DNA of 64,000 nt from Pseudorhodoplanes sinuspersici (lineage in GTDB: Bacteria; Pseudomonadota; Alphaproteobacteria; Rhizobiales; Xanthobacteraceae). The notes under the pieces were generated by a model, which worked only from the letters and a program-made list of their open reading frames with translations, did not search any database and was not told where the DNA came from. The position numbers were made by a program, and so were the translations under genes. The stretch lies in assembly GCF_002119765.1 (NCBI RefSeq), contig NZ_CP021112.1, positions 3,838,501 through 3,902,500 on the forward strand, in the 5' to 3' direction. Shown piece after piece: positions 693-62,702 of this stretch. Positions within the stretch are counted from its first letter, which is position 1; the number at the start of each line of letters is the position of its first letter.

Positions 693-1577
693 TCAGCTCC
701 CGCGATAGGTTGAATAGCTCCAGGGCGTGACCAGCAGCGGCACGTGATAATGCCCTTCCGCCTCGGCGACGGAGAAACGGATCGGCACGATCCCAAGAAA
801 GGCCGGGTCGGCCTGCACCGTCTTGTTCGCCGCGAAATAAGCCGCGACCTCGAACTGCAATTCGTAGGTGCCGATCCGCAACGGCTCACCGGCAACGAAG
901 GGCTGATCGGTGCGGCCGTCGGAATTGGTGACGGCCTTCGCTAACAAGCTGCGGGCGCTCGCGCCCACTTCATAAAGCGAGATCGTCACGCCCTGTGCTG
1001 GCTGGCCGCTGACATTATCGAGCACATGGGTCGAGATGCGACCAGTCGTTTTCGGCTTGCCGGGGCCATCGACCTTGTCGACAAGCCGCAGCCGCGTGAT
1101 CAGCGCGATTTCGTCGAGCGCGGCTTTGCGTTCTGCATCGGCATCGTTCGCGAGCCGCCGCTCGAATTGCCGCAGGATCGAATCGCGCGTGTGCCGCCGC
1201 ACGCAGATGATGAAGGGGAAGCCGAACTTCTCGCGATAGGCCTTGTTCAAGTCTGAGAATTTCGTGAATTCGGCGTCGCTCAGGCGGTCGAGCCCGAGGC
1301 TGCCCTGTTCGGACTGCGATTCAGTGGTCCAATCGAGCCGCTTCACCTTGGAGCCGAGCTCCGGATGCGCCCGGATGAAAGCGAGCTGGCGCTCAGCCGG
1401 GCTCTCCCGCACCACCGCGACCATGGCGTCATGCAGGGCGGTGACGGTCGGGAAGGGACGCCGCCCGGCCGCGCCTTCGGCGACCCAGGGGGCATGCTCG
1501 AAAATGTCTCCGACAGCGCCGACAAAGGCGGTCTCGGAAAGGGAGTTCAGCGAATCTAAAGTGAACGTGGCGGCCAT
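693..1577 (-). CDS. Bifunctional OHCU decarboxylase / 5-hydroxyisourate hydrolase
   Basis: Fusion of the last two enzymes of urate-to-allantoin conversion. Residues 1-165 are the OHCU decarboxylase (UraD) domain with HAPWV (28-32), HPELG (71-75, catalytic His) and FGFPFIICV (118-126). Residues 180-294 are the transthyretin-like 5-hydroxyisourate hydrolase (UraH) domain with STHVLD (His184), GHYHVPLLV and the diagnostic C-terminal YRGS. Together they convert 5-hydroxyisourate through OHCU to S-allantoin. In many bacteria these are separate genes of about 165 and 115 residues; here both lengths are preserved with a short linker. It is transcribed away from the ECF sigma gene. No other purine genes are visible nearby. 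Confidence 0.93.
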   Translation of the reverse strand: MAATFTLDSLNSLSETAFVGAVGDIFEHAPWVAEGAAGRRPFPTVTALHDAMVAVVRESPAERQLAFIRAHPELGSKVKRLDWTTESQSEQGSLGLDRLSDAEFTKFSDLNKAYREKFGFPFIICVRRHTRDSILRQFERRLANDADAERKAALDEIALITRLRLVDKVDGPGKPKTTGRISTHVLDNVSGQPAQGVTISLYEVGASARSLLAKAVTNSDGRTDQPFVAGEPLRIGTYELQFEVAAYFAANKTVQADPAFLGIVPIRFSVAEAEGHYHVPLLVTPWSYSTYRGS

Positions 1578-1774
1578 GAATCACGACGATACCTGATAAG
1601 CCCTGAAAAACCATTGATAACAATCGCGAAATTGCCCGCTTGGGAATATTCGCCCGTTGCATTAGGAAGGGCTGGGGCGAATTTTCTCTTCCTGACGCCC
1701 CGCCGAACTTTCGCTCACATCCATTTGAACCGGACCCGCGTTAACCGCGACCAAACCATGAGCCGGCCGTCACG

Positions 1775-2335
1775 ATGCAGCAGACATCAGACGAAGTCCT
1801 GATCCAGCGGATCGCAGGTGGTGACAGGCTCGCCATGCAGGTGCTGTTCGCGCGGCACCATGTACGGGTCTACCGGTTCATCCTTCGCATGGTGCGTAAT
1901 GAAGCCACTGCGGAGGATTTGATCAGCGAGGTCTTCCTCGATGTCTGGCGTCAAGCCGGGCGCTTCGAGGGACGGAGTGCCGTCTCGACCTGGCTGCTCG
2001 CGATCGCGAGGTTCAAGGCTCTTTCGGCCCTTCGGGGACGCAAGGAGGCTGAACTGGACGATGACTTTGCAGAGGCGATCGAGGATATTTCCGACACCCC
2101 CGAAGCGTCGATGCAAAAGAAGGATACGAGCGAGATCCTGCGCAAGTGCATTGAAACACTGACGCCGGATCATCGGGAGATTATCGATCTCGTCTACTAC
2201 CACGAGAAGTCCGTGGAAGAAGTCGCCGAGATCGTCGGTATCCCGGAGAATACCGTCAAAACGCGCATGTTTTATGCGCGGAAAAAATTGGCGGAATCCT
2301 TGAAGGCGGCGGGAATCGAGAGAGGTTGGCCATGA
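1775..2335 (+). CDS. ECF-type RNA polymerase sigma factor
   Basis: 186-residue sigma-70 family protein. Region 2 includes the helix around AEDLISEVFLDVWRQ (core binding and -10 recognition). Region 4 is an HTH around VEEVAEIVGIPENTVKTRM (-35 recognition). Region 3 is absent, as expected for ECF factors. The stop overlaps the next start (ATGA at 2332-2335), so it is translationally coupled to its anti-sigma partner. The 1578-1774 gap divergent from uraD-uraH should hold its promoter, possibly autoregulated; a GAACTT at about 1702 resembles an ECF -35 element but is weak evidence. The following secreted protease and nuclease are likely in the same transcript. Confidence 0.92.
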   Translation: MQQTSDEVLIQRIAGGDRLAMQVLFARHHVRVYRFILRMVRNEATAEDLISEVFLDVWRQAGRFEGRSAVSTWLLAIARFKALSALRGRKEAELDDDFAEAIEDISDTPEASMQKKDTSEILRKCIETLTPDHREIIDLVYYHEKSVEEVAEIVGIPENTVKTRMFYARKKLAESLKAAGIERGWP

Positions 2336-3003
2336 ACGCAACAGTGAACAAAGCGCCAGAGAATAGCGAAGAGATCGAGTTGCTGCTGCCGTGGTATGCT
2401 GCCGGCACGCTGAGCCGTCGCGATGCTGCGCGGGTGGAAAGCGCGCTGGCCAAGGATGCGGAGCTTGCCCGCCGTTTCGAGATGGTGCGCGAGGAACTCG
2501 GCGAAACCATTCGCGGCAATGAATCGCTGGGTGCGCCGTCGGCGCGGGCGATGAAGAATCTGTTTGAAAAGATCGATGCCGAACCGGCCCGGCGCGTGGC
2601 GCCGTCCGTGAGCTTCATGACCCGGGTTTCGGAATTCATGGCGAGCTTCTCGCCCCGGACCCTCGCTTATGCCGGCGGCATCGCGGCGCTGGCGATCGTG
2701 CTGCAGGCCGGCGTCATCGGCAGCCTGATCGGGGAGCGGACCGGAACTTCGCCGCAGCTGGCCTCGACCGAGAAGGTGGCGCCGCTCAGCGGAGGCGTCG
2801 AAGCCCTGGTACAGTTTGCACCGCAGGCGAGCGCCGCGGATATCGCAGCCTTCCTGGAGGCCAACAAGGCGACCATCGTCGGCGGCCCGGCGGCTGGCAA
2901 TTTCCGCATCCGGGTTGCGTCTGCGACCAAGGAGCAGACTGCCGAAATCGTGAAAAAGCTGCAGGGCAGCAAGGTGATAAGCTTCGCCGCGCCTGCCAAT
3001 TAA
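2332..3003 (+). CDS. Membrane anti-sigma factor (zinc-less type)
   Basis: 223-residue single-pass membrane protein. The N-terminal cytoplasmic part (EIELLLPWYAAGTLSRRDAARVE) resembles the sigma-binding helices of anti-sigma factors but lacks the HxxxCxxC zinc motif. A transmembrane helix follows at about 118-140, then a periplasmic tail of about 80 residues that could sense an envelope signal. The ATG at 2332 overlaps the sigma stop; a TTG at 2326 in the same frame is less likely. It should sequester the upstream ECF factor at the membrane until the periplasmic domain is triggered. The assignment rests mainly on architecture and coupling. Confidence 0.8.
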   Translation: MNATVNKAPENSEEIELLLPWYAAGTLSRRDAARVESALAKDAELARRFEMVREELGETIRGNESLGAPSARAMKNLFEKIDAEPARRVAPSVSFMTRVSEFMASFSPRTLAYAGGIAALAIVLQAGVIGSLIGERTGTSPQLASTEKVAPLSGGVEALVQFAPQASAADIAAFLEANKATIVGGPAAGNFRIRVASATKEQTAEIVKKLQGSKVISFAAPAN

Positions 3004-3085
3004 TGGGCGAACCAGCGCAAGCCGAGCGCGCCTGATTGGGTGCGCTCCAAGGCGGGACCACGATTTCCCTTTAAGGCACACCATC

Positions 3086-4543
3086 ATGCGTTATCGTTCC
3101 GGACATCCGATCGGCCTTGCAATCTCGGTTCTTGCCGCCGCCGGCTTGATCGCCTCTGTTGCGCCATCGGCTTTCGCCCAAGGTTACGGATATGGTGGCG
3201 GCTATGGCGGTGGAGATTACCGCGGCGGCGGTTACCGGACGCAAAGCGCACCGAGCAATCCGGCACCGGTGCGCAAACCTGTTCGCACGGTGAAGCCGAT
3301 CGAGGATACGCGTGCGCAACCGGCAAGGCCCGGGCCCGCAACACGCAGCCTTTCCAAATCCACGAAGTCCGATGCGCCGCGGGCGGCGCGGCGTGAAAGC
3401 GGCGAGGCGCCGGCCGGCGAACGCCGCTTCACCGACAATGAAGTCGTAATCGAAGTCGCCGGTACACCGACGCCGCAGCAGGTCGATGCGCTGGCGCGCC
3501 GCCATGGTCTCAATCGCGAAGAGTCACAGAGTTTCGATCTGAGCGGTACCACGATGTTCCGCTGGACCATCCCGGACGGCCGCAACGTCAATACCGTGAT
3601 CCGCCGCCTGGAGACCGATTCCAGCATTCTTTCTGTGCAGCCGAACTATCGCTATACGCTGCAGCAATCAAAAACCGGCGATGGCATTCAATATGCGGTC
3701 GAGAAATTGCGGCTGCCGCGTGCGCATGAACTGGCGCAAGGCGAGCGTGTTCTGGTCGCGGTGATCGATTCCGGCATCGATGCGAAGCATCCCGAGATCG
3801 TCGGCACCGTCGCCGACAGTTTCGACCCTGCCGGCGGCAGCGGCGATGCGCATTCACACGGCACCGGCATTGCCGGAGCGATCGTCGCGCATGCGCGCCT
3901 GACCGGCGTTGCGCCGCGCGCGCGCATCCTGGCGGTCCGCGCCTTCGATCCCAACGGGGCGAGCGCGGAAGGCACGACCTTCAACATTCTGAAGGGGCTC
4001 GAATGGGCCACGAAGAGAGGCGCCCGCGTCATCAATATGAGCTTTGCCGGTCCGCGCGATCCGGTGATCGGCCGCGCGCTCGCCGCCGCCAACAAGAAGG
4101 GCATCGTGCTGATCGCGGCAGCGGGAAATTCAGGTCCGAAATCGCCGCCGCTTTATCCTGCGGCCGACCTTAACGTCATCGCCGTCACAGCGACGGATAC
4201 GCAGGATCATCTTTTCCCGATGTCGAACCGCGGCAATCATGTTGCTATTGCGGCGCCAGGCGTCGATGTGCTGCTGCCGACGTCCGGCGGCAGCTATCAG
4301 ATGGCGACCGGTACGTCCTTCGCGTCGGCTTATATCAGCGGTATTGCCGCGCTGCTGCTTGAACGTGAACCGGGATTGTCGCCGGACGCTGTGCGCGGCG
4401 TTCTGCTTCGGACCGCACGCGATCTCGGACCAAAGGGCCGCGACAAGGATTTCGGCGCGGGTCTTGCCGATGCTTTCGAGGCCGTAACATCGCTCGGCGG
4501 CAAGCCGGCCGATGGATTGTCGGCCAGCTCCAACCGGCAATAA
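3086..4543 (+). CDS. Secreted subtilisin-like S8 serine protease
   Basis: 485-residue secreted peptidase. A Sec signal peptide ends near AFAQ (about residue 32) and is followed by a Gly/Tyr-rich stretch. A propeptide/inhibitor-I9-like region covers about 110-195. The catalytic domain has Asp228 in VIDSGID, His258 in SHGTGIAG and Ser411 in GTSFAS, with the oxyanion Asn likely in AAGNSGP. It lies 82 bases after the anti-sigma gene. The order sigma, anti-sigma, protease, nuclease suggests an exported hydrolytic response under one ECF regulator. The protease might instead feed back on the anti-sigma factor; the sequence does not decide. Confidence 0.9.
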   Translation: MRYRSGHPIGLAISVLAAAGLIASVAPSAFAQGYGYGGGYGGGDYRGGGYRTQSAPSNPAPVRKPVRTVKPIEDTRAQPARPGPATRSLSKSTKSDAPRAARRESGEAPAGERRFTDNEVVIEVAGTPTPQQVDALARRHGLNREESQSFDLSGTTMFRWTIPDGRNVNTVIRRLETDSSILSVQPNYRYTLQQSKTGDGIQYAVEKLRLPRAHELAQGERVLVAVIDSGIDAKHPEIVGTVADSFDPAGGSGDAHSHGTGIAGAIVAHARLTGVAPRARILAVRAFDPNGASAEGTTFNILKGLEWATKRGARVINMSFAGPRDPVIGRALAAANKKGIVLIAAAGNSGPKSPPLYPAADLNVIAVTATDTQDHLFPMSNRGNHVAIAAPGVDVLLPTSGGSYQMATGTSFASAYISGIAALLLEREPGLSPDAVRGVLLRTARDLGPKGRDKDFGAGLADAFEAVTSLGGKPADGLSASSNRQ

Positions 4544-4561
4544 CGGGAAGCGCGCGCGACG

Positions 4562-5143
4562 ATGCGTTGGCTGATTTCGCTTTCAATCGTTGGCGGTCTC
4601 TTGTTTCCGGTTCAGGTCCACGCCAGCGGCGTCTCTCTCGCCGATGGCGATTCGTTCCGGATCGGTGAGTATCGCTATCGGCTTCACGGCATCGACGCGC
4701 CGGAGCTGCATCAGGAATGCAAGGACATTGACGGGCGAGTATGGCCCTGCGGCACACGGGCCCGCACCGAACTGCGGCGCATCATCGCCACCGATCCGCT
4801 CGAATGCCGTTCCGTTACAACCGATCGCTTTGGCCGGATCGTCGCAACGTGCCTTGCGGGCAGCCGGGATATCGCCGAAGAGATGGTGCGTGCCGGTTAT
4901 GCCATTGCGTCAGGGCGTCACGGCGCTCCCAGTCCTTATGAAGACGCACAGAGGCAGGCCCGCGACGCCAAGCGCGGAATATGGGCCGGGACATTCGAGA
5001 CGCCGCGCGAGTGGCGGCGCGGCAATCCGCGAAGTGATGAGCCAGAACGATCGGTGATCACCCCGCGCGCCTGGCTCGATCGAAAGATCGCCGAGATTCG
5101 CAAGACCCTGGCGGAATGGTTTCCTTCGATCTTCGGCCGGTGA
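4562..5143 (+). CDS. Secreted thermonuclease-family nuclease
   Basis: 193-residue staphylococcal-nuclease-fold protein with a signal peptide (residues 1-22). Visible motifs are ADGDSF (27-32, Ca-binding Asp), GIDAPE (43-48) and DRFGR (88-92, active-site Arg), then the family's usual ending AKRGIWAG. It should cleave nucleic acid in the periplasm or outside the cell. An extra basic tail of about 45 residues follows the domain. It starts 18 bases after the protease stop, so the two are probably co-transcribed and perhaps ECF-controlled. Confidence 0.88.
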   Translation: MRWLISLSIVGGLLFPVQVHASGVSLADGDSFRIGEYRYRLHGIDAPELHQECKDIDGRVWPCGTRARTELRRIIATDPLECRSVTTDRFGRIVATCLAGSRDIAEEMVRAGYAIASGRHGAPSPYEDAQRQARDAKRGIWAGTFETPREWRRGNPRSDEPERSVITPRAWLDRKIAEIRKTLAEWFPSIFGR

Positions 5144-8404: not shown

Positions 8405-9160
8405 ATGGGTGCCGAGATCATTCTCGAAACGCGGGATCTCACAAAGGAATTTGCCGGCTTTGTTGCGGTCAATGGCGTTAACCTGCAGGTTGAACGTGGA
8501 ACCATTCACGCACTGATCGGTCCGAACGGGGCTGGCAAGACCACCTGTTTCAATCTCCTCACCAAGTTCCTGAACCCGACGCGGGGGAAAATCTTCTACA
8601 AGGGACAGGATATTACAGCGATGCAGCCGGCCGATGTGGCGCGGCTGGGTGTCGTGCGTTCGTTCCAGATATCGGCGGTGTTTCCGCACCTTACGGTTCT
8701 GGAAAATGTGCGCGTCGGCCTGCAACGCAAACGCGGCGGCTCGTTCGATTTCTGGCGCTCGCGCGCGGTGCTCGATCAGTTCAATGCCCGCGCAATGTCG
8801 CTGATCGAGGATGTCGGTCTGACCGGCTTCGCCAATATACCGGCGGTGGAATTGCCGTATGGCCGCAAGCGCGCTTTGGAAATCGCGACCACGCTCGCAC
8901 TCGACCCGGACATGCTGCTGCTCGATGAGCCGACCGCCGGCATGGGCCATGAGGACATCGACCGCATCGCGGAGTTGATCAAGACCGTTTCCGCCGACCG
9001 CACCGTCCTGATGGTCGAGCATAATCTGTCGGTGGTCTCGAACCTGTCACACAAGATCACGGTGCTGACGCGCGGCCGCGTGCTGGCCGAGGGCGATTAC
9101 GAGACGGTGTCGAATAATCCGCAGGTGCGCGAAGCCTATATGGGGACCGGCCATGCTTGA
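8405..9160 (+). CDS. Branched-chain amino acid-type ABC transporter ATPase (LivG-like)
   Basis: 251-residue ATP-binding subunit. Walker A is GPNGAGKT, Walker B is MLLLDEPTAG, and the switch His is in MVEHNLSVV. The signature position reads LPYGRKRALEIA, as in LivG proteins. First gene of a five-gene importer. The start could also be the TTG at 8402; GGGAGG at 8389-8394 suits either. The family imports amino acids, urea, amides or aromatic acids. The last 8 bases overlap the next ATPase gene. Confidence 0.9.
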   Translation: MGAEIILETRDLTKEFAGFVAVNGVNLQVERGTIHALIGPNGAGKTTCFNLLTKFLNPTRGKIFYKGQDITAMQPADVARLGVVRSFQISAVFPHLTVLENVRVGLQRKRGGSFDFWRSRAVLDQFNARAMSLIEDVGLTGFANIPAVELPYGRKRALEIATTLALDPDMLLLDEPTAGMGHEDIDRIAELIKTVSADRTVLMVEHNLSVVSNLSHKITVLTRGRVLAEGDYETVSNNPQVREAYMGTGHA

Positions 9161-57357: not shown

Positions 57358-57942
57358 GTGACCAAGGCCCTGTCCAGAACCCAGCCCCGGAAGACCGCCA
57401 CCCCCAAGGCCGGCGCCACCAAGACCGCCGCCACCAAGGCCGCGGTCCGGCCGAAGGCGCGCGCGGCCGACGATCGTCCGTTCTGGAAGCGCAAGACGCT
57501 CGACGAGATGACCCCGGCCGAATGGGAAAGCCTGTGCGACGGCTGCGGCCGCTGCTGCCTCAACAAGCTGGAGGAGGAGGACACCGGCAAGCTGTTCTTC
57601 ACCGATGTCGCCTGCAAGCTGCTCGACCATGAGAGCTGCCGCTGCAAGAACTACAAGACGCGGTTCAAGAAGGTGCCCGATTGCGTGTCGCTGACGCCCA
57701 AGGAGGTGCGCAAGATCGACTGGCTGCCGCCGACCTGCGCCTATGATCTGCTCGCCAAGGGCAAGGACCTCTATTGGTGGCACCCGCTGGTCTCCGGCGA
57801 TCCCGACACGGTGCACAAAGCCGGCGTCTCGGTGCGCGGCCGCGTCGGCGCGAGCGAGAAGGATGTGCCGGACGCCGAGCTGGAAAACTGGATTGTGAAA
57901 TGGCCGGGGAAGGTTCCGAAGGGGGCGGCGAGGAAGCGGTGA
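57358..57942 (+). CDS. YcgN/UPF0260 cysteine-cluster protein
   Basis: 194 residues from a GTG start. After a basic, Ala/Lys-rich tail of about 40 residues comes the conserved [20 protein letters not shown] and the Cys cluster [15 protein letters not shown]. Further Cys follow ([40 protein letters not shown]). The eight or so Cys suggest a metal or Fe-S site. The family (YkgJ-like) has no firm function. Last gene before the AT-richer island. Confidence 0.9.
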
Positions 57943-58001
57943 TCTGTTAAGTTAAGTATTTTCATTCTCCAGAAATTTCTTTATTTGGATTGGATTAGTT
58001 C

Positions 58002-59210
58002 TTGACGCGCGACGTATCAGCAGAAGACCGAGTTATTGTCTTAGGCAGCGGCTTGGCGCCGATTCCAGAGCGCTTGCTGCTTGCACACGCGCGAGGCGAA
58101 GTTCTGTTCATTTGCGGTGCGGGAGTTTCCAAGCCAGCAGGGCTGCCAGATTTTCGTGAGCTAGTGCTCGATGTTTACCGTGCTCTTGATGCCAGTGTTC
58201 ATACAGTCATTGCTTCCTTGCCACGTGGAGCATGTAACCGGTGGGAAGTGGATTGCTCAACTCTAAATGATAGACAGAAGGCAGAGGTTAAGCGGTTCAT
58301 CAACGGCGACTATGACGTTGTTCTTGGCATGCTTGAAAGGCGTCTTGATGATCAGACACGTGGCGATAGCCAGGTTAGGTTCGAAGTAGCTAAGCGTTTG
58401 CGAGCAGGTCAAAACAAACCCGCTTCGATCCATCGTACGCTTATGCGCTTGGCTGACCGAGGTGGCACAACGACCATTGTGACGACTAACTTTGACCTTC
58501 TGCTTCAGAGGGCAGCACTACGGCGTACGTCCTTAATTCAAACCTACTCGCTTGGCTCGATCCCTAGACCAACGCGGAACGCAGAGTTTTCTGGAGTGTT
58601 GCATATTCACGGGGCTCTAAGTGCAAATCCAAGCCGGGTCTCGGAGCTTGTCCTTTCAGATCAAGACTTTGGCGAATTCTACCTTCGTCGGCGCGTGGTT
58701 CCTGATTTTATCTATGATGCCGCTCGTCTTTTTCACTTAGTTTTGGTTGGCTACAGCGCTTCCGATCCACCAATGCGCTATCTGTTGAATGCAGTCGCGG
58801 CCGACGGGACACGCTTTGACGACTTGAAGGAGCGCTTCACTTTTTTCGGAACAAGCGAGCCAGATCCAGTCGCGCTTGAGGACTGGAAAGCGCGCGGCAT
58901 TACCCCAGTCCATTACAGGGGAGAGAATAATCATTCGGCTCTACGAGAGACACTGGAGCGATGGGCGGAATTTTCTGCAATCAATGGAAGGAAAGATCGC
59001 GTCGATGCCAAGATGCGTCGAATCGTAAAAGCGCCCAGAGCGGCAGCGCTCGATGAGGATCGCGATTTGTTTGATCACTTCATTAGGCGAAGCAACATGA
59101 GTGAGCGAGTCAGACTATCGGCTTTGGTGTCCGAGGCAAAGGCTGACCTTGGGTGGCTCGATGCGATCGTCAAGATTGGTGCGGAAAGAGAGCGGGAACA
59201 GCGACCATGA
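58002..59210 (+). CDS. SIR2-like NAD-hydrolase domain protein, candidate defence effector
   Basis: 402 residues from a TTG at 58002 (a TTG at 58052 is also possible). The SIR2 Rossmann fold is clear: LFICGAGVSKPAGLPDF (36-51, NAD-binding), VTTNFDLLL (160-168, Asn163/Asp165), LHIHGAL with His203 as the catalytic base, and VGYSASDPP (249-257). There is no zinc ribbon Cys4 module, so it is not a classical deacetylase; it belongs with prokaryotic SIR2 proteins that destroy NAD in phage defence. It overlaps the next gene by ATGA. Base composition is visibly AT-richer than the flanks, indicating acquisition. Confidence 0.85.
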   Translation: MTRDVSAEDRVIVLGSGLAPIPERLLLAHARGEVLFICGAGVSKPAGLPDFRELVLDVYRALDASVHTVIASLPRGACNRWEVDCSTLNDRQKAEVKRFINGDYDVVLGMLERRLDDQTRGDSQVRFEVAKRLRAGQNKPASIHRTLMRLADRGGTTTIVTTNFDLLLQRAALRRTSLIQTYSLGSIPRPTRNAEFSGVLHIHGALSANPSRVSELVLSDQDFGEFYLRRRVVPDFIYDAARLFHLVLVGYSASDPPMRYLLNAVAADGTRFDDLKERFTFFGTSEPDPVALEDWKARGITPVHYRGENNHSALRETLERWAEFSAINGRKDRVDAKMRRIVKAPRAAALDEDRDLFDHFIRRSNMSERVRLSALVSEAKADLGWLDAIVKIGAEREREQRP

Positions 59211-61948
59211 TCCCGGCTTGGGCTTATCTCAACGATGAGGATCGTGCGGCGTTTAGAGCCGCGGTCGCGTTTCTTAATAAGCGCCTTGCGGAACAGGCGA
59301 CGATAGATTGGGCGCTTAGTTTGAAGCGCACCCAGCGTATAGAACGTCTTGCAATCGAGGATTTGCTGGACAGTCCCAGTGCGATCAATCTTGATGAACC
59401 TTGGGCGACTGCGTGGAGATTGATCGAAGAAGGCTGGTCTGCCCCGTTGATGGAAGAAGGTGCGTCGACGGCAATATATGGCATCCAGAAGCGGCTTCGA
59501 GCAGGGGATCGTTCAGGCGCAGTCATCTCTAACATTGTTGGTCTTGTTGCGCCCAGCCTTAAGGTTGAGCCGCTTGATGCTTGGCGTTGGCAGCTAGTAA
59601 AAAAGCCTCGGCACCCAAAGACTTTTGATCAGCTGCTTCATGCAACGCTGACCAGCGGAGATCTTGTAGATTTAAATGTCTTAAATATAGCAAGCCTGAC
59701 AGATGTTGCCTTCCTAAGATCGTTAGGAAGTGCGCTTGAGTACGCCGTTAATCACGGACTCGAAATAGCCAAGAGGCTTGGGTGGGATGGACAGCGGTCG
59801 CTGTGGCGGCTCGGGTTCTTAAGTCGTGTGTATTATACTCAAGCCGCGAGAAGGTATGGAGAAACAAGTGAGCCTGATGCTTATCACCGTGGCATCGCCC
59901 CCTCGGTCAAGCTTCTCTGGACGGTGGTTGCGCGTCTAGCTGAGTTGGAAGCTCAAGATGCGATGCCGTTCATTCACCGTTGGCGGATGGCTGAAACCGT
60001 TGTCCATACGCGACTATGGGCAGCGGCGGCCCGAAACTCTAATCTTGTCGGCCCGGAAGAAGCGGGCGCATTCCTGAAGAATCTTGATGATCGTCATTTC
60101 TGGGATTTGGATGCATTTCCGGAAATCGCTGAGCTTCGTTCGATACGGTTTTCCGATCTCGCTCCTAATGTTCAGAAGGCGATAGCAAAAAGAGTTCGAA
60201 AAGGGCCTCCTCGCAATCATTGGCCACGTAAGGCAGACGAAGCAAAGGTAGGAAATTTTCAGCTTTATTGGACTGTGCGCGAGCTTAAGCGGATAGAGGT
60301 TGCCGGTGGTGATTTGCCCGCGGATGAGCGGAGTTGGTTGAATGTTAACATTGGCCAGTTTTCAGATCTGGCCCAGATGAATATTGAAGAAGGATTCTCA
60401 AGAGCGTCTGAGGTCTATACTGTTCTTCCAAATCCAGATGAGAAGCTTGACGCTCTTAGCGGGTTAGCACGTTTGCGTGCGTTGGAAGTTGCGTTTTCAA
60501 CTGCTCGCAATGGTTGGGGTGATGATCCCGCCGAGCGCGCTAGCGAATGGCTTCGGCAGCCGGGAAGAATTCAGCTTTTGATTGGTGAATTGGAAGCAAC
60601 TGGGAATGGTGGAAATGATTTCCCCCATATTTGGAGCCGTTTCGGCTGGGCGCATTCGCCGAAGGACGAGCAGCATGCGACGGCAAGCTCGCAACGAAAT
60701 TTGCAAGCAGAAGCTAATCGCGTTCTCGTACTTCTAAACGAACTATCCAAAGCTACCCTGGCAGCCGCAATTGAGGGTATTAGCGCTTGGCTCGATGCAT
60801 GGGAGAAACAAGTCGTTGCATCCGCCTTGGGGTTGGCGGTGTGGCTGAGGATTTGGCCGATTGCGGTTGAAGCCACGAATGCGAGACCGGAGAAGGAGGG
60901 CGACGCAAATCTCAGCGTAACGGCCAGCAATGCTGACGATGATAGCGATTCGATGGATATCGATACGCTGAATACACCCACTGGCAAGCTCGTCGGCGTT
61001 TTCCTCGCTGCATGCCCGTCTCTTAACGATGCGCCGAGGCCATTCGAAAGTAGCAGCGCTGTGCACCAAATGCGTGGTGCTATGATTGATGCCGCCGGCC
61101 GATCCGGTTTGATCGTGCGGCACCGATTGATTGAGGCTCTGCCGTATTTTCTCCGAGCTGATCGCTCGTGGGCAGAGCAATATCTTATATCGCCTCTATT
61201 AAAAGATGATGGGGCGTCGCTAGCTTTGTGGCGCGCAATTGCGCGTCGAACACACTTCACCGAAGTCTTGAAGATTATCGGTAACGCTATGGCCGAAAGG
61301 TCGACTGATCGTCGCTTGGGGCGTGAAACTCGGCAGCAGCTGGTGTTTAGCCTTGTTATTGAAAGTTTACATGCGTTTCGCGAGGGTCGCGAGGCGGCAG
61401 TATCCAATCCGCGTGTTCAACAAATGCTTCGGACAATCGATGACGAGGTTCGTGCCTATGCGGCGAACGCCATCCAACGGTTCATCTATGATCTTTCCGT
61501 GGATAAGTCAGGCACTGGGCAAGCGCCAAGCGCCGCCGATTTGTTCCGGTCCGCTGCTGCGCCTTTTCTCCAGCATGTTTGGCCGCAAGAGCGTTCGTTG
61601 GCTACGCCGGGCGTCAGCAGCGCGTTTGCGGACCTCCCTGCGACATCAGGAGAAGCATTTGTAGAGGCTGTCGACGCTATCGAGCGTTTTTTAGTTCCTT
61701 TCGAATGCTGGTCGATGCTTCAATACGGCCTTTATGGTGAAGATGGAGGGAAAAAGAAGCTCACTATCATCAACACAGAGGCTAAAGCGGAAGCTTTGCT
61801 TCGCTTGTTTGATTTAACAATTGGAAACTCTGAGGGCTCGGTGATACCTTACAATTTGACTGACGCACTGGATCGAATCCGATCCGTTGCGCCGGAACTT
61901 GCGAAAGGTTCGATCTACCGACGTCTTTCTACCGCCGCCAGGCGCTAG
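59207..61948 (+). CDS. Large helical partner of the SIR2 protein (DUF4020-like C-terminus)
   Basis: 913 residues, predicted mainly alpha-helical, with no P-loop, nuclease or membrane motif visible. The C-terminal 125 residues (VWPQERSLATPGVSSAFADL from about 791, then INTEAKAEALLRLFDLTIG) resemble DUF4020, a domain found with SIR2 domains; I hold this with moderate confidence. An acidic stretch (NADDDSDSMDIDTLN) divides the protein near residue 580. ATGA coupling to the SIR2 gene implies a fixed stoichiometric partner, probably sensor or scaffold. AT-richer than the chromosome around it. Confidence 0.75.
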   Translation: MIPAWAYLNDEDRAAFRAAVAFLNKRLAEQATIDWALSLKRTQRIERLAIEDLLDSPSAINLDEPWATAWRLIEEGWSAPLMEEGASTAIYGIQKRLRAGDRSGAVISNIVGLVAPSLKVEPLDAWRWQLVKKPRHPKTFDQLLHATLTSGDLVDLNVLNIASLTDVAFLRSLGSALEYAVNHGLEIAKRLGWDGQRSLWRLGFLSRVYYTQAARRYGETSEPDAYHRGIAPSVKLLWTVVARLAELEAQDAMPFIHRWRMAETVVHTRLWAAAARNSNLVGPEEAGAFLKNLDDRHFWDLDAFPEIAELRSIRFSDLAPNVQKAIAKRVRKGPPRNHWPRKADEAKVGNFQLYWTVRELKRIEVAGGDLPADERSWLNVNIGQFSDLAQMNIEEGFSRASEVYTVLPNPDEKLDALSGLARLRALEVAFSTARNGWGDDPAERASEWLRQPGRIQLLIGELEATGNGGNDFPHIWSRFGWAHSPKDEQHATASSQRNLQAEANRVLVLLNELSKATLAAAIEGISAWLDAWEKQVVASALGLAVWLRIWPIAVEATNARPEKEGDANLSVTASNADDDSDSMDIDTLNTPTGKLVGVFLAACPSLNDAPRPFESSSAVHQMRGAMIDAAGRSGLIVRHRLIEALPYFLRADRSWAEQYLISPLLKDDGASLALWRAIARRTHFTEVLKIIGNAMAERSTDRRLGRETRQQLVFSLVIESLHAFREGREAAVSNPRVQQMLRTIDDEVRAYAANAIQRFIYDLSVDKSGTGQAPSAADLFRSAAAPFLQHVWPQERSLATPGVSSAFADLPATSGEAFVEAVDAIERFLVPFECWSMLQYGLYGEDGGKKKLTIINTEAKAEALLRLFDLTIGNSEGSVIPYNLTDALDRIRSVAPELAKGSIYRRLSTAARR

Positions 61949-62002
61949 GGAATCCGGTCCCGGTATTAATCCCTTGGAATCCTTTGAAAAGGAAAATAAT
62001 CC

Positions 62003-62031
62003 TTGACAGCGTGACGCTGCCGGGATAGGGT
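62003..62031 (+). promoter_or_regulatory. Sigma-70-like promoter
   Basis: TTGACA (62003-62008), 17 bases, then TAGGGT (62026-62031). The -35 is consensus; the -10 matches at three of six. It would give a leader of about 125 bases before the gene at 62163, containing the palindrome at 62107. Confidence 0.45.
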
Positions 62032-62106
62032 TTCGGCAATCTCCACAATTGCATCGGCAGCGCGCGATGGCGCTGCACCCCCCCTCCCGACGCGCTGCGC
62101 ACGTCG

Positions 62107-62129
62107 ACCTCCCCCGCAAGGGGGGAGGT
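62107..62129. repeat. ACCTCCCCC/GGGGGAGGT palindrome
   Basis: 9-10 bp arms around GCAA, of the same general family as the elements at 11131-11301. It lies in the leader of the gene at 62163, with GGGGGGAGG 25-40 bases before the start. Confidence 0.7.
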
Positions 62130-62162
62130 GAACCGTGTGCGCGGCCCGCATCCGAGATTCCC

Positions 62163-62702
62163 ATGGCCTTATCCGACCATATCAAGCCCGAGCCCAATCC
62201 GCCGCTGACGCGCGAGCGCGTGATCCTGGCGCGCGAGATGTATGCCGAAGGCTTCGCCGTCGCGCGCATTATGGCCCAATGTCTGATGTCGCTCGGCACG
62301 CTCTATGCCTGTCTCGACGGTGTGCCGTTCGGCGCCGACGGCGAACAATGGCCGCCCTTGCCGCGGCGGCGGCAGACCCTGCATCAGAAGCGGCGGGCGC
62401 TGAAGGCCGATGCCGTGTCGCTGGCCAACCGGCTGACGCGCACCGCCGAGCGGCAGGTGCGCGATATCGAAATGCGGCTGTCGGCGCGGACGATCGCGCC
62501 GGTCGATCGCGAGCGCGATGTGCGCATGCTGGCCCAGCTCGCGCGCACGCTGCGCGATTTGCGTTTGCTGGGCGCGGCCGATGCGGCCGGTGCGGCGCGC
62601 AAGGCACAGGATGAGCCAAAGCGGGACATCGCGGAATTGCGGGCTTCGGTGGCGCGCAAGCTGGAAGCGATCATCGCCCAGCGCGACAACCGGCAGACCT
62701 GA
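62163..62702 (+). CDS. Small HTH protein, possibly terminase-small-subunit-like
   Basis: 179 residues from ATG 62163. The N-terminal region REMYAEGFAVARIMAQCLMS with LGTLYACLDGVP reads like a helix-turn-helix of the kind in phage and gene-transfer-agent small terminases. A long charged helical second half follows (ERQVRDIEMRLSARTIAPVD, VRMLAQLARTLRDLRLLG). I recall similar proteins near packaging genes in this order, but no terminase, portal or capsid gene is adjacent here. Assignment tentative. Confidence 0.5.
   Translation: MALSDHIKPEPNPPLTRERVILAREMYAEGFAVARIMAQCLMSLGTLYACLDGVPFGADGEQWPPLPRRRQTLHQKRRALKADAVSLANRLTRTAERQVRDIEMRLSARTIAPVDRERDVRMLAQLARTLRDLRLLGAADAAGAARKAQDEPKRDIAELRASVARKLEAIIAQRDNRQT

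Follow-up and report, generated by a model that had tools for sequence, protein, structure and literature searches.

The closest described systems to the locus reported here are SIR2-based antiphage defences made as single proteins. Dsr1 (NF041818 in NCBIfam, Dsr1 in PADLOC) is one polypeptide of about 1263 amino acids (aa), with an N-terminal SIR2 domain holding catalytic Asn, Asp and His and a large C-terminal helical region. DSR2 of Bacillus subtilis (PDB 8w56, 8wyb and others) is likewise a single protein and is activated by tail tube protein. It joins a SIR2 effector to a helical region containing HEAT repeats (PMC11263360); its C-terminal domain senses and its SIR2 domain acts, DSR1 is counted among single-gene systems, and DSR2 is described as sufficient alone (PMC10973363; all PMC articles named here are cited from excerpts). 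A two-gene SIR2 NAD hydrolase (NADase) system is known in SIR2-HerA (Nezha), in which the active-site Asn and His and the partner are required (PMC11559045). Here, we report a pair of coupled genes from Pseudorhodoplanes sinuspersici (contig NZ_CP021112.1, positions 3,838,501 to 3,902,500) that is, by profile comparison, a Dsr1 split into two genes. The whole 64,000-nucleotide (nt) stretch is called the window, and all coordinates without a locus prefix are positions in it. The pair comprises the following features.

58002 to 59210, forward strand: SIR2-domain protein of 402 aa with a TTG start, likely an NAD hydrolase (effector), N-terminal part of split Dsr1
59207 to 61948, forward strand: 913-aa helical, HEAT-like solenoid protein, likely sensor/scaffold, C-terminal part of split Dsr1
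59207 to 59210, forward strand: ATGA overlap, with the start of the large gene on the stop of the SIR2 gene, likely translational coupling
58488 to 58496, forward strand: catalytic N163-F164-D165 codons, counterpart by motif of DSR2 N133-Y134-D135
58608 to 58613, forward strand: catalytic H203-G204 codons, counterpart by motif of DSR2 H171

The gene pair and its kinship to Dsr1

Alignments of each protein were compared with an alignment of 21 Dsr1-like proteins encoded in a single open reading frame (ORF), using hhalign. The SIR2 protein (44 rows) matched columns 20 to 366 (E = 2.4e-65), and the large protein (45 rows) matched columns 419 to 1257 (E = 2.3e-54). Because these matches are collinear, the two genes correspond to two parts of Dsr1, cut at about position 370 to 420; the pair is, on this profile evidence, a two-gene split Dsr1, homologous over nearly its whole length. 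Individual models agree. The 402-aa protein matches NCBIfam Dsr1 at 3.6e-60 (203.9 bits; best stretch, model positions 55 to 304) and PADLOC Dsr1 at 2.4e-48. The 913-aa protein matches NCBIfam Dsr1 at 1.1e-25 (89.6 bits; best stretch 889 to 1262, with a further piece at 647 to 780) and the PADLOC Dsr1 models too, and in PADLOC 2.0.0 and NCBIfam 20.0 it matched only full-length Dsr1 models. Searched with NF041818, 44 of 398 genomes in the phylum give a match (9 of them over the curated cut-off), and none of 14 control genomes does.

A preliminary description of this DNA, made from the sequence letters, had proposed a two-gene operon joined by ATGA, and both ORFs and the shared ATGA were confirmed. 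TTG 58002 is the sole fitting start of the first gene, since an in-frame TAG lies two codons upstream (57996) and conservation among relatives begins at residue 8. The same description suggested structure prediction and a PADLOC search, and recognised no named system in the arrangement. The separate-protein arrangement held up; the supposed lack of kinship to a named system did not, with Dsr1 models matching both proteins and profiles that are collinear.

The 402-aa protein matches Pfam SIR2_2 (6.3e-17) and Pfam SIR2 (1.8e-05). Asn163, Asp165 and His203, together with Gly204, are invariant in 44/44 split and 21/21 fused sequences; the DSR2 pocket consists of N133, Y134, D135 and H171 (PMC11263360). 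The protein has three Cys, and CxxC was found in none of the 44 split SIR2 sequences, which bears out the earlier statement that the domain lacks a zinc ribbon. Its AlphaFold2 (AF2) model (predicted local distance difference test [pLDDT], 82.6; predicted template modelling score [pTM], 0.83) was compared with PDB folds using Foldseek; all 50 matches listed, of 88 at E ≤ 0.001, are DSR2 (the best match), KomC/HAM-SIR2 and ThsA. By sequence and model, the SIR2 half retains both the fold and the catalytic residues known from the DSR2/ThsA NADases, with hydrolase activity itself predicted. The Pfam SIR2 match would also fit a sirtuin of metabolism or protein deacylation that has an unrelated partner and acts outside defence, and deacylase sirtuins are present among the PDB sequence matches of the protein; deacylases use Asn and His as well. 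We regard that reading as very improbable, given the missing CxxC, the defence NADases that fill the 50 listed folds, the Dsr1 homology of both halves, and the sporadic, plasmid-borne occurrence and restriction-rich slot described below.

The 913-aa protein has no Pfam family at E ≤ 1, in keeping with the earlier remark that it carries no recognised enzymatic motif. Its end had been called DUF4020-like; Pfam has a DUF4020 model, which gave no match at E ≤ 1, the word is absent from the open papers searched, and this identity was rejected. The AF2 model is nearly all helix (pLDDT, 83.8; pTM, 0.58). Among four stretches compared, residues 371 to 580 are the most variable and 581 to 913 the most conserved; as the most variable stretch, residues 371 to 580 are a candidate sensing surface.

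Other SIR2 systems share less with the pair. The partner in SIR2-HerA is a HerA helicase/ATPase and that in SIR2-pAgo carries APAZ or PIWI, unlike the 913-aa partner, which lacks any Pfam family. Thoeris ThsA and HAM1-SIR2 (KomBC) have the SIR2 NADase fold, but SLOG, TIR and HAM1 were not found on the two proteins, to which Pfam assigns SIR2_2/SIR2 only.

Persistence of the two-gene form

Genome contigs were scanned with two peptide patterns taken from the split-clade alignment, so the proportion of split loci describes that clade and not Dsr1 at large. The scan returned 55 loci, 50 of them with a SIR2 match directly upstream of the large-protein match. For a census, the window and four plasmid loci were added and the duplicates L018, L025 and L031 removed, giving 55 distinct loci with both genes; the recurrence of the pair, which the preliminary description had proposed to check, is thus established. 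The two-gene form is present in 54 of the 55, with a distance of −29 to +1 nt between gene ends (start as chosen by script), and 42 of the 55 overlap by 4 or 1 nt. At L052, counted within those 42, the junction is ATGA at 8992 to 8995 (ATG −4 class). The exception is L040:7795-11673 (Latescibacteria), a single ORF of 1292 aa; nested deep inside the split clade, it is read as a re-fusion, which hints at a physical complex of the two proteins.

Hosts, by record label, are Pseudomonadota, Thermodesulfobacteriota, Nitrospirota, Chlorobiota and Latescibacterota. For Chlorobiota and Latescibacterota, all the genomes are metagenome-assembled; no such label is attached to Nitrospira defluvii (L044), Pelotalea (L038) or Malonomonas (L050). 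A SIR2 tree of 82 rows separates 56 of them (55 split, 1 fused) from the other 26 at 100/100 support. The 26 rows comprise 23 single-ORF Dsr1 (21 distinct; L087/L112 and L088/L113 are doubled) and 3 short or multi-ORF loci; L078 and L085 were called split by ORF length alone, and L078 has two stops. The tree is unrooted and does not set the ancestral form, split or single-gene, and long branches make positions within the fused side unsure. The placement of Pseudomonas rows within alphaproteobacteria and the intermingling of phyla form the pattern that horizontal transfer would give.

Distances between SIR2 proteins and between large proteins are correlated (r = 0.966; 43 loci; 0 of 2,000 permutations as high), as expected of any co-inherited pair. 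The ratio of nonsynonymous to synonymous substitution rates (dN/dS) is 0.04 to 0.41 for the SIR2 gene and 0.10 to 0.29 for the large gene in 9 of the 10 tested pairs (dS of the tenth is saturated), and is higher for the large gene in 8 of the 9. As far as sequence comparison reaches, the two-gene form is shown to be old and under purifying selection. Alignment A4 (large protein, 45 rows) leaves out L026, L033, L051, L052 and L070 (broken or partial), the fused L040 and the plasmid loci; alignment A5 leaves out L026, L040, L051, L052, L054, L055, L070 and the plasmid loci.

Two readings would make the split an illusion. A single-gene Dsr1 recently broken by an indel or an assembly error, leaving a decaying gene, would account for a total length (1315 aa) close to that of the Dsr1 model (1263), and broken copies do exist: L078 (two stops), L026 and L033 (one stop each, in the large gene) and L051 (frame break). 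It is barely credible when the split lies at the same place in 54 of 55 distinct loci across distant hosts, which we take as refuting it, when the frame relations are three (42, 11 and 1 loci) plus one fusion, and when both genes show low dN/dS within a deep clade supported at 100/100. A programmed frameshift joining the ORFs, with a single Dsr1 polypeptide as the functional product, is suggested by the frame relation common to 42 of 55 loci and by the natural fusion L040. We consider this quite improbable, since the 12 loci in other frame relations could not be served by one type of frameshift, and since ATGA, GTGA and TGATG are the usual stop-start coupling motifs.

Further forms were seen. 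L060 (19.6 kb of available DNA), L072 (18.5 kb), L138 (3.2 kb) and L139 (3.2 kb) match the large protein in part, lack a SIR2 match within that DNA and are likely remnants of the pair. At L118 (G107:C16:793500-801000, positions 1280 to 4969), Dsr1 is spread over three ORFs of 336, 575 and 320 aa with overlapping ends, which share 42 to 56% identity with consecutive portions of the single-ORF L091 and each match PADLOC Dsr1. The three-gene form was not found in other genomes (the closest matches listed fall within a single annotated SIR2 gene or a single long ORF) and is treated as a singleton.

Distribution and genomic setting

The pair is sporadic. Large-protein matches occur in 11 of 198 genomes of the family, full-length with the full pair in 3 (own included); across the order, a full-length match is present in 4 of 397 genomes (own included; G826 with an in-frame stop) and a partial one in 2. 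The pair is in none of the 7 other genomes of the genus. No relatives were found in viral contigs and phage records. Five loci are plasmid-borne, each on a plasmid classed as conjugative: one in Bradyrhizobium, two in Agrobacterium, one in Rhizobium and one in Sinorhizobium. In the annotated plasmid records, the genes appear as "SIR2 family protein" plus "hypothetical protein" or both as "hypothetical"; an N-6 methylase lies near the pair in Agrobacterium.

In the window, the pair occupies a slot between two genes that lie outside the system.

57358 to 57942, forward strand: ycgN (NCBIfam YcgN, 8.2e-78), left border of the variable slot
62166 to 62702, forward strand: small conserved gene, right border of the slot, with homologues beyond the differing cargo in G038, G071 and G092

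The preliminary description had named ycgN as a core gene on one side, which stands (present in 7 of the 8 genomes of the genus, own included), and a phage- or gene transfer agent (GTA)-like small gene on the other. The GTA-like label is weak, because the homologue in a sister genome matches Terminase_5 at 20.0 bits, below the cut-off of 20.3. A second copy of the small gene, 45% identical, lies about 6 kb downstream (L121:6812-7291). Both genes of the pair had also been described as AT-richer than their flanks, and their GC content is indeed 52.9%, against 60.9% on the left and 64.9% on the right, the lowest of any 3.9-kb stretch in the window (mean, 60.5; standard deviation, 1.9). Of 42 related loci flanked by 8 kb or more, 35 likewise have a GC content below that of the flanks (mean difference, −3.8 points).

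What lies behind ycgN was examined in all 7 members of the genus that carry the gene, own genome included, although in G128 and G111 the reading stopped short of the right border. The cargo is a C5-methylase with Vsr in G038, an N4/N6 methylase with a 767-aa protein without assigned family in G071, an MmeI-type IIG enzyme in G128, Mrr among other genes in G143 and VapBC in G092, that is, restriction or methylase genes in 4 of 6 sister genomes and a toxin-antitoxin pair in 1 of 6. Within the genus, the slot (window 57942 to 62166; L129, L131, L132, L133 and L134) appears to be a cargo hotspot for restriction and toxin-antitoxin genes. Rather than a conserved core operon lacking a defence neighbourhood, the outcome named beforehand as telling against a defence role, the pair is an accessory of few family genomes with restriction-type genes in the same slot of its sisters. 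The 767-aa protein beside the methylase (L132:1084-3387, forward strand) has no Pfam (E ≤ 0.01) or PADLOC match and is possibly an unknown defence gene.

Neighbours of the pair elsewhere include ZorA (L028), LmuB (L063) and a Type I specificity subunit (L050); a neighbour at L038 has a partial match to a type II restriction endonuclease, and Pfam gives it as AAA_5. PADLOC gave 253 families by 140 of 197 near proteins and 55 by 105 of 117 far proteins, counts that are no rate because one protein matches many models.

Proposed mechanism and its weight

The pair has homology to Dsr1, conserved active-site residues, conserved gene coupling and an accessory distribution. From these, and by analogy with DSR2, we put at roughly 75% the probability that it is a coupled two-protein NADase antiphage defence of split-Dsr1 type, in which the solenoid both restrains and senses; the preliminary description's candidate, an NAD-depleting defence with effector and likely sensor on separate proteins, is supported as a candidate. 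Coupling of the genes would let both proteins be made together and enter one complex, in which the 913-aa solenoid would assemble SIR2 subunits and hold them inactive. The solenoid would then bind a phage protein, and the ensuing change would open the pocket of the SIR2 subunits, whereupon the cell's NAD+ would be hydrolysed and phage growth halted. Since inhibition of phage by DSR1 reportedly occurs without death of the cell (PMC10952713, citing Garb et al.), this proposal commits to no cell fate.

Several observations weigh against the proposal. Both proteins score far below the curated NF041818 cut-off (203.9 and 89.6 against 1400 bits). The large-protein model is only weakly like HEAT-type solenoids such as karyopherins (TM-score, 0.11 to 0.27 in the 50 matches listed, of 813), and DSR2 is not among these 50. 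Searches of solved structures with the large protein, as a single query or a 45-row profile (E ≤ 10), gave no sequence match, DSR2 chains and their C-terminal region included; the sensor role is therefore argued from Dsr1 homology and analogy. Five of the 55 scan loci have no SIR2 match: L069 and L073 (contig ends) and L060, L072 and L074 (partial). Among the cargo of the slot, that of G111 (a DUF2201/VWA protein) has no defence match, and 6 of 10 large neighbours, picked non-randomly, have none (4 of 10 do). Several-fold dS gaps separate the SIR2 and large genes in L014/L028 (0.163 and 0.034), L015/L064 (0.014 and 0.094) and L066/L067 (0.139 and 0.387); such unequal dS suggests recombination or partner exchange, against strict co-inheritance. 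For DSR2 itself, one paper describes the isolated SIR2 domain as monomeric and reports that NADase activity requires assembly (PMC10973363), whereas another reports that tetramerisation is dispensable (PMC11263360).

The main competing explanation inverts the role of the large protein: as an antitoxin-like inhibitor, it would keep in check a SIR2 protein that is active and toxic when free, until phage removes or degrades it. Separate genes with the enzyme first, a split that allows free SIR2, and VapBC in the same slot of one sister genome speak for it. We consider it unlikely, as homology to Dsr1 predicts a sensor-activator and as the monomeric state of isolated DSR2 SIR2, if assembly is essential, leaves a free subunit inactive; on the latter point, the two sources disagree as noted.

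A two-gene Dsr1 was not found in PADLOC 2.0.0 or NCBIfam 20.0 models or among the titles and abstracts listed, at most 30 per search, from the open PMC literature, a search that leaves subscription papers and most preprints outside. Within these sources, the split-Dsr1 pair is a variant, a new arrangement of an already known defence type. Such pairs may be missed in surveys, because the window's two proteins fall far below the Dsr1 cut-off and the annotated plasmid records label the genes "SIR2 family protein" or "hypothetical". We hold more tentatively, at somewhat short of even odds, that they form a distinct two-protein Dsr1 branch in which a HEAT-like solenoid, made as a separate sensor protein, arms a free SIR2 NADase, and which has spread horizontally over several phyla and has its own class of phage trigger. 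With the sensor as its own gene, sensors could be swapped between effectors, as the unequal dS of some pairs hints. In a natural two-gene Dsr1, effector and sensor are genetically separate, and removing and mixing the genes could show which half senses, which restrains the NADase and whether SIR2 needs assembly.

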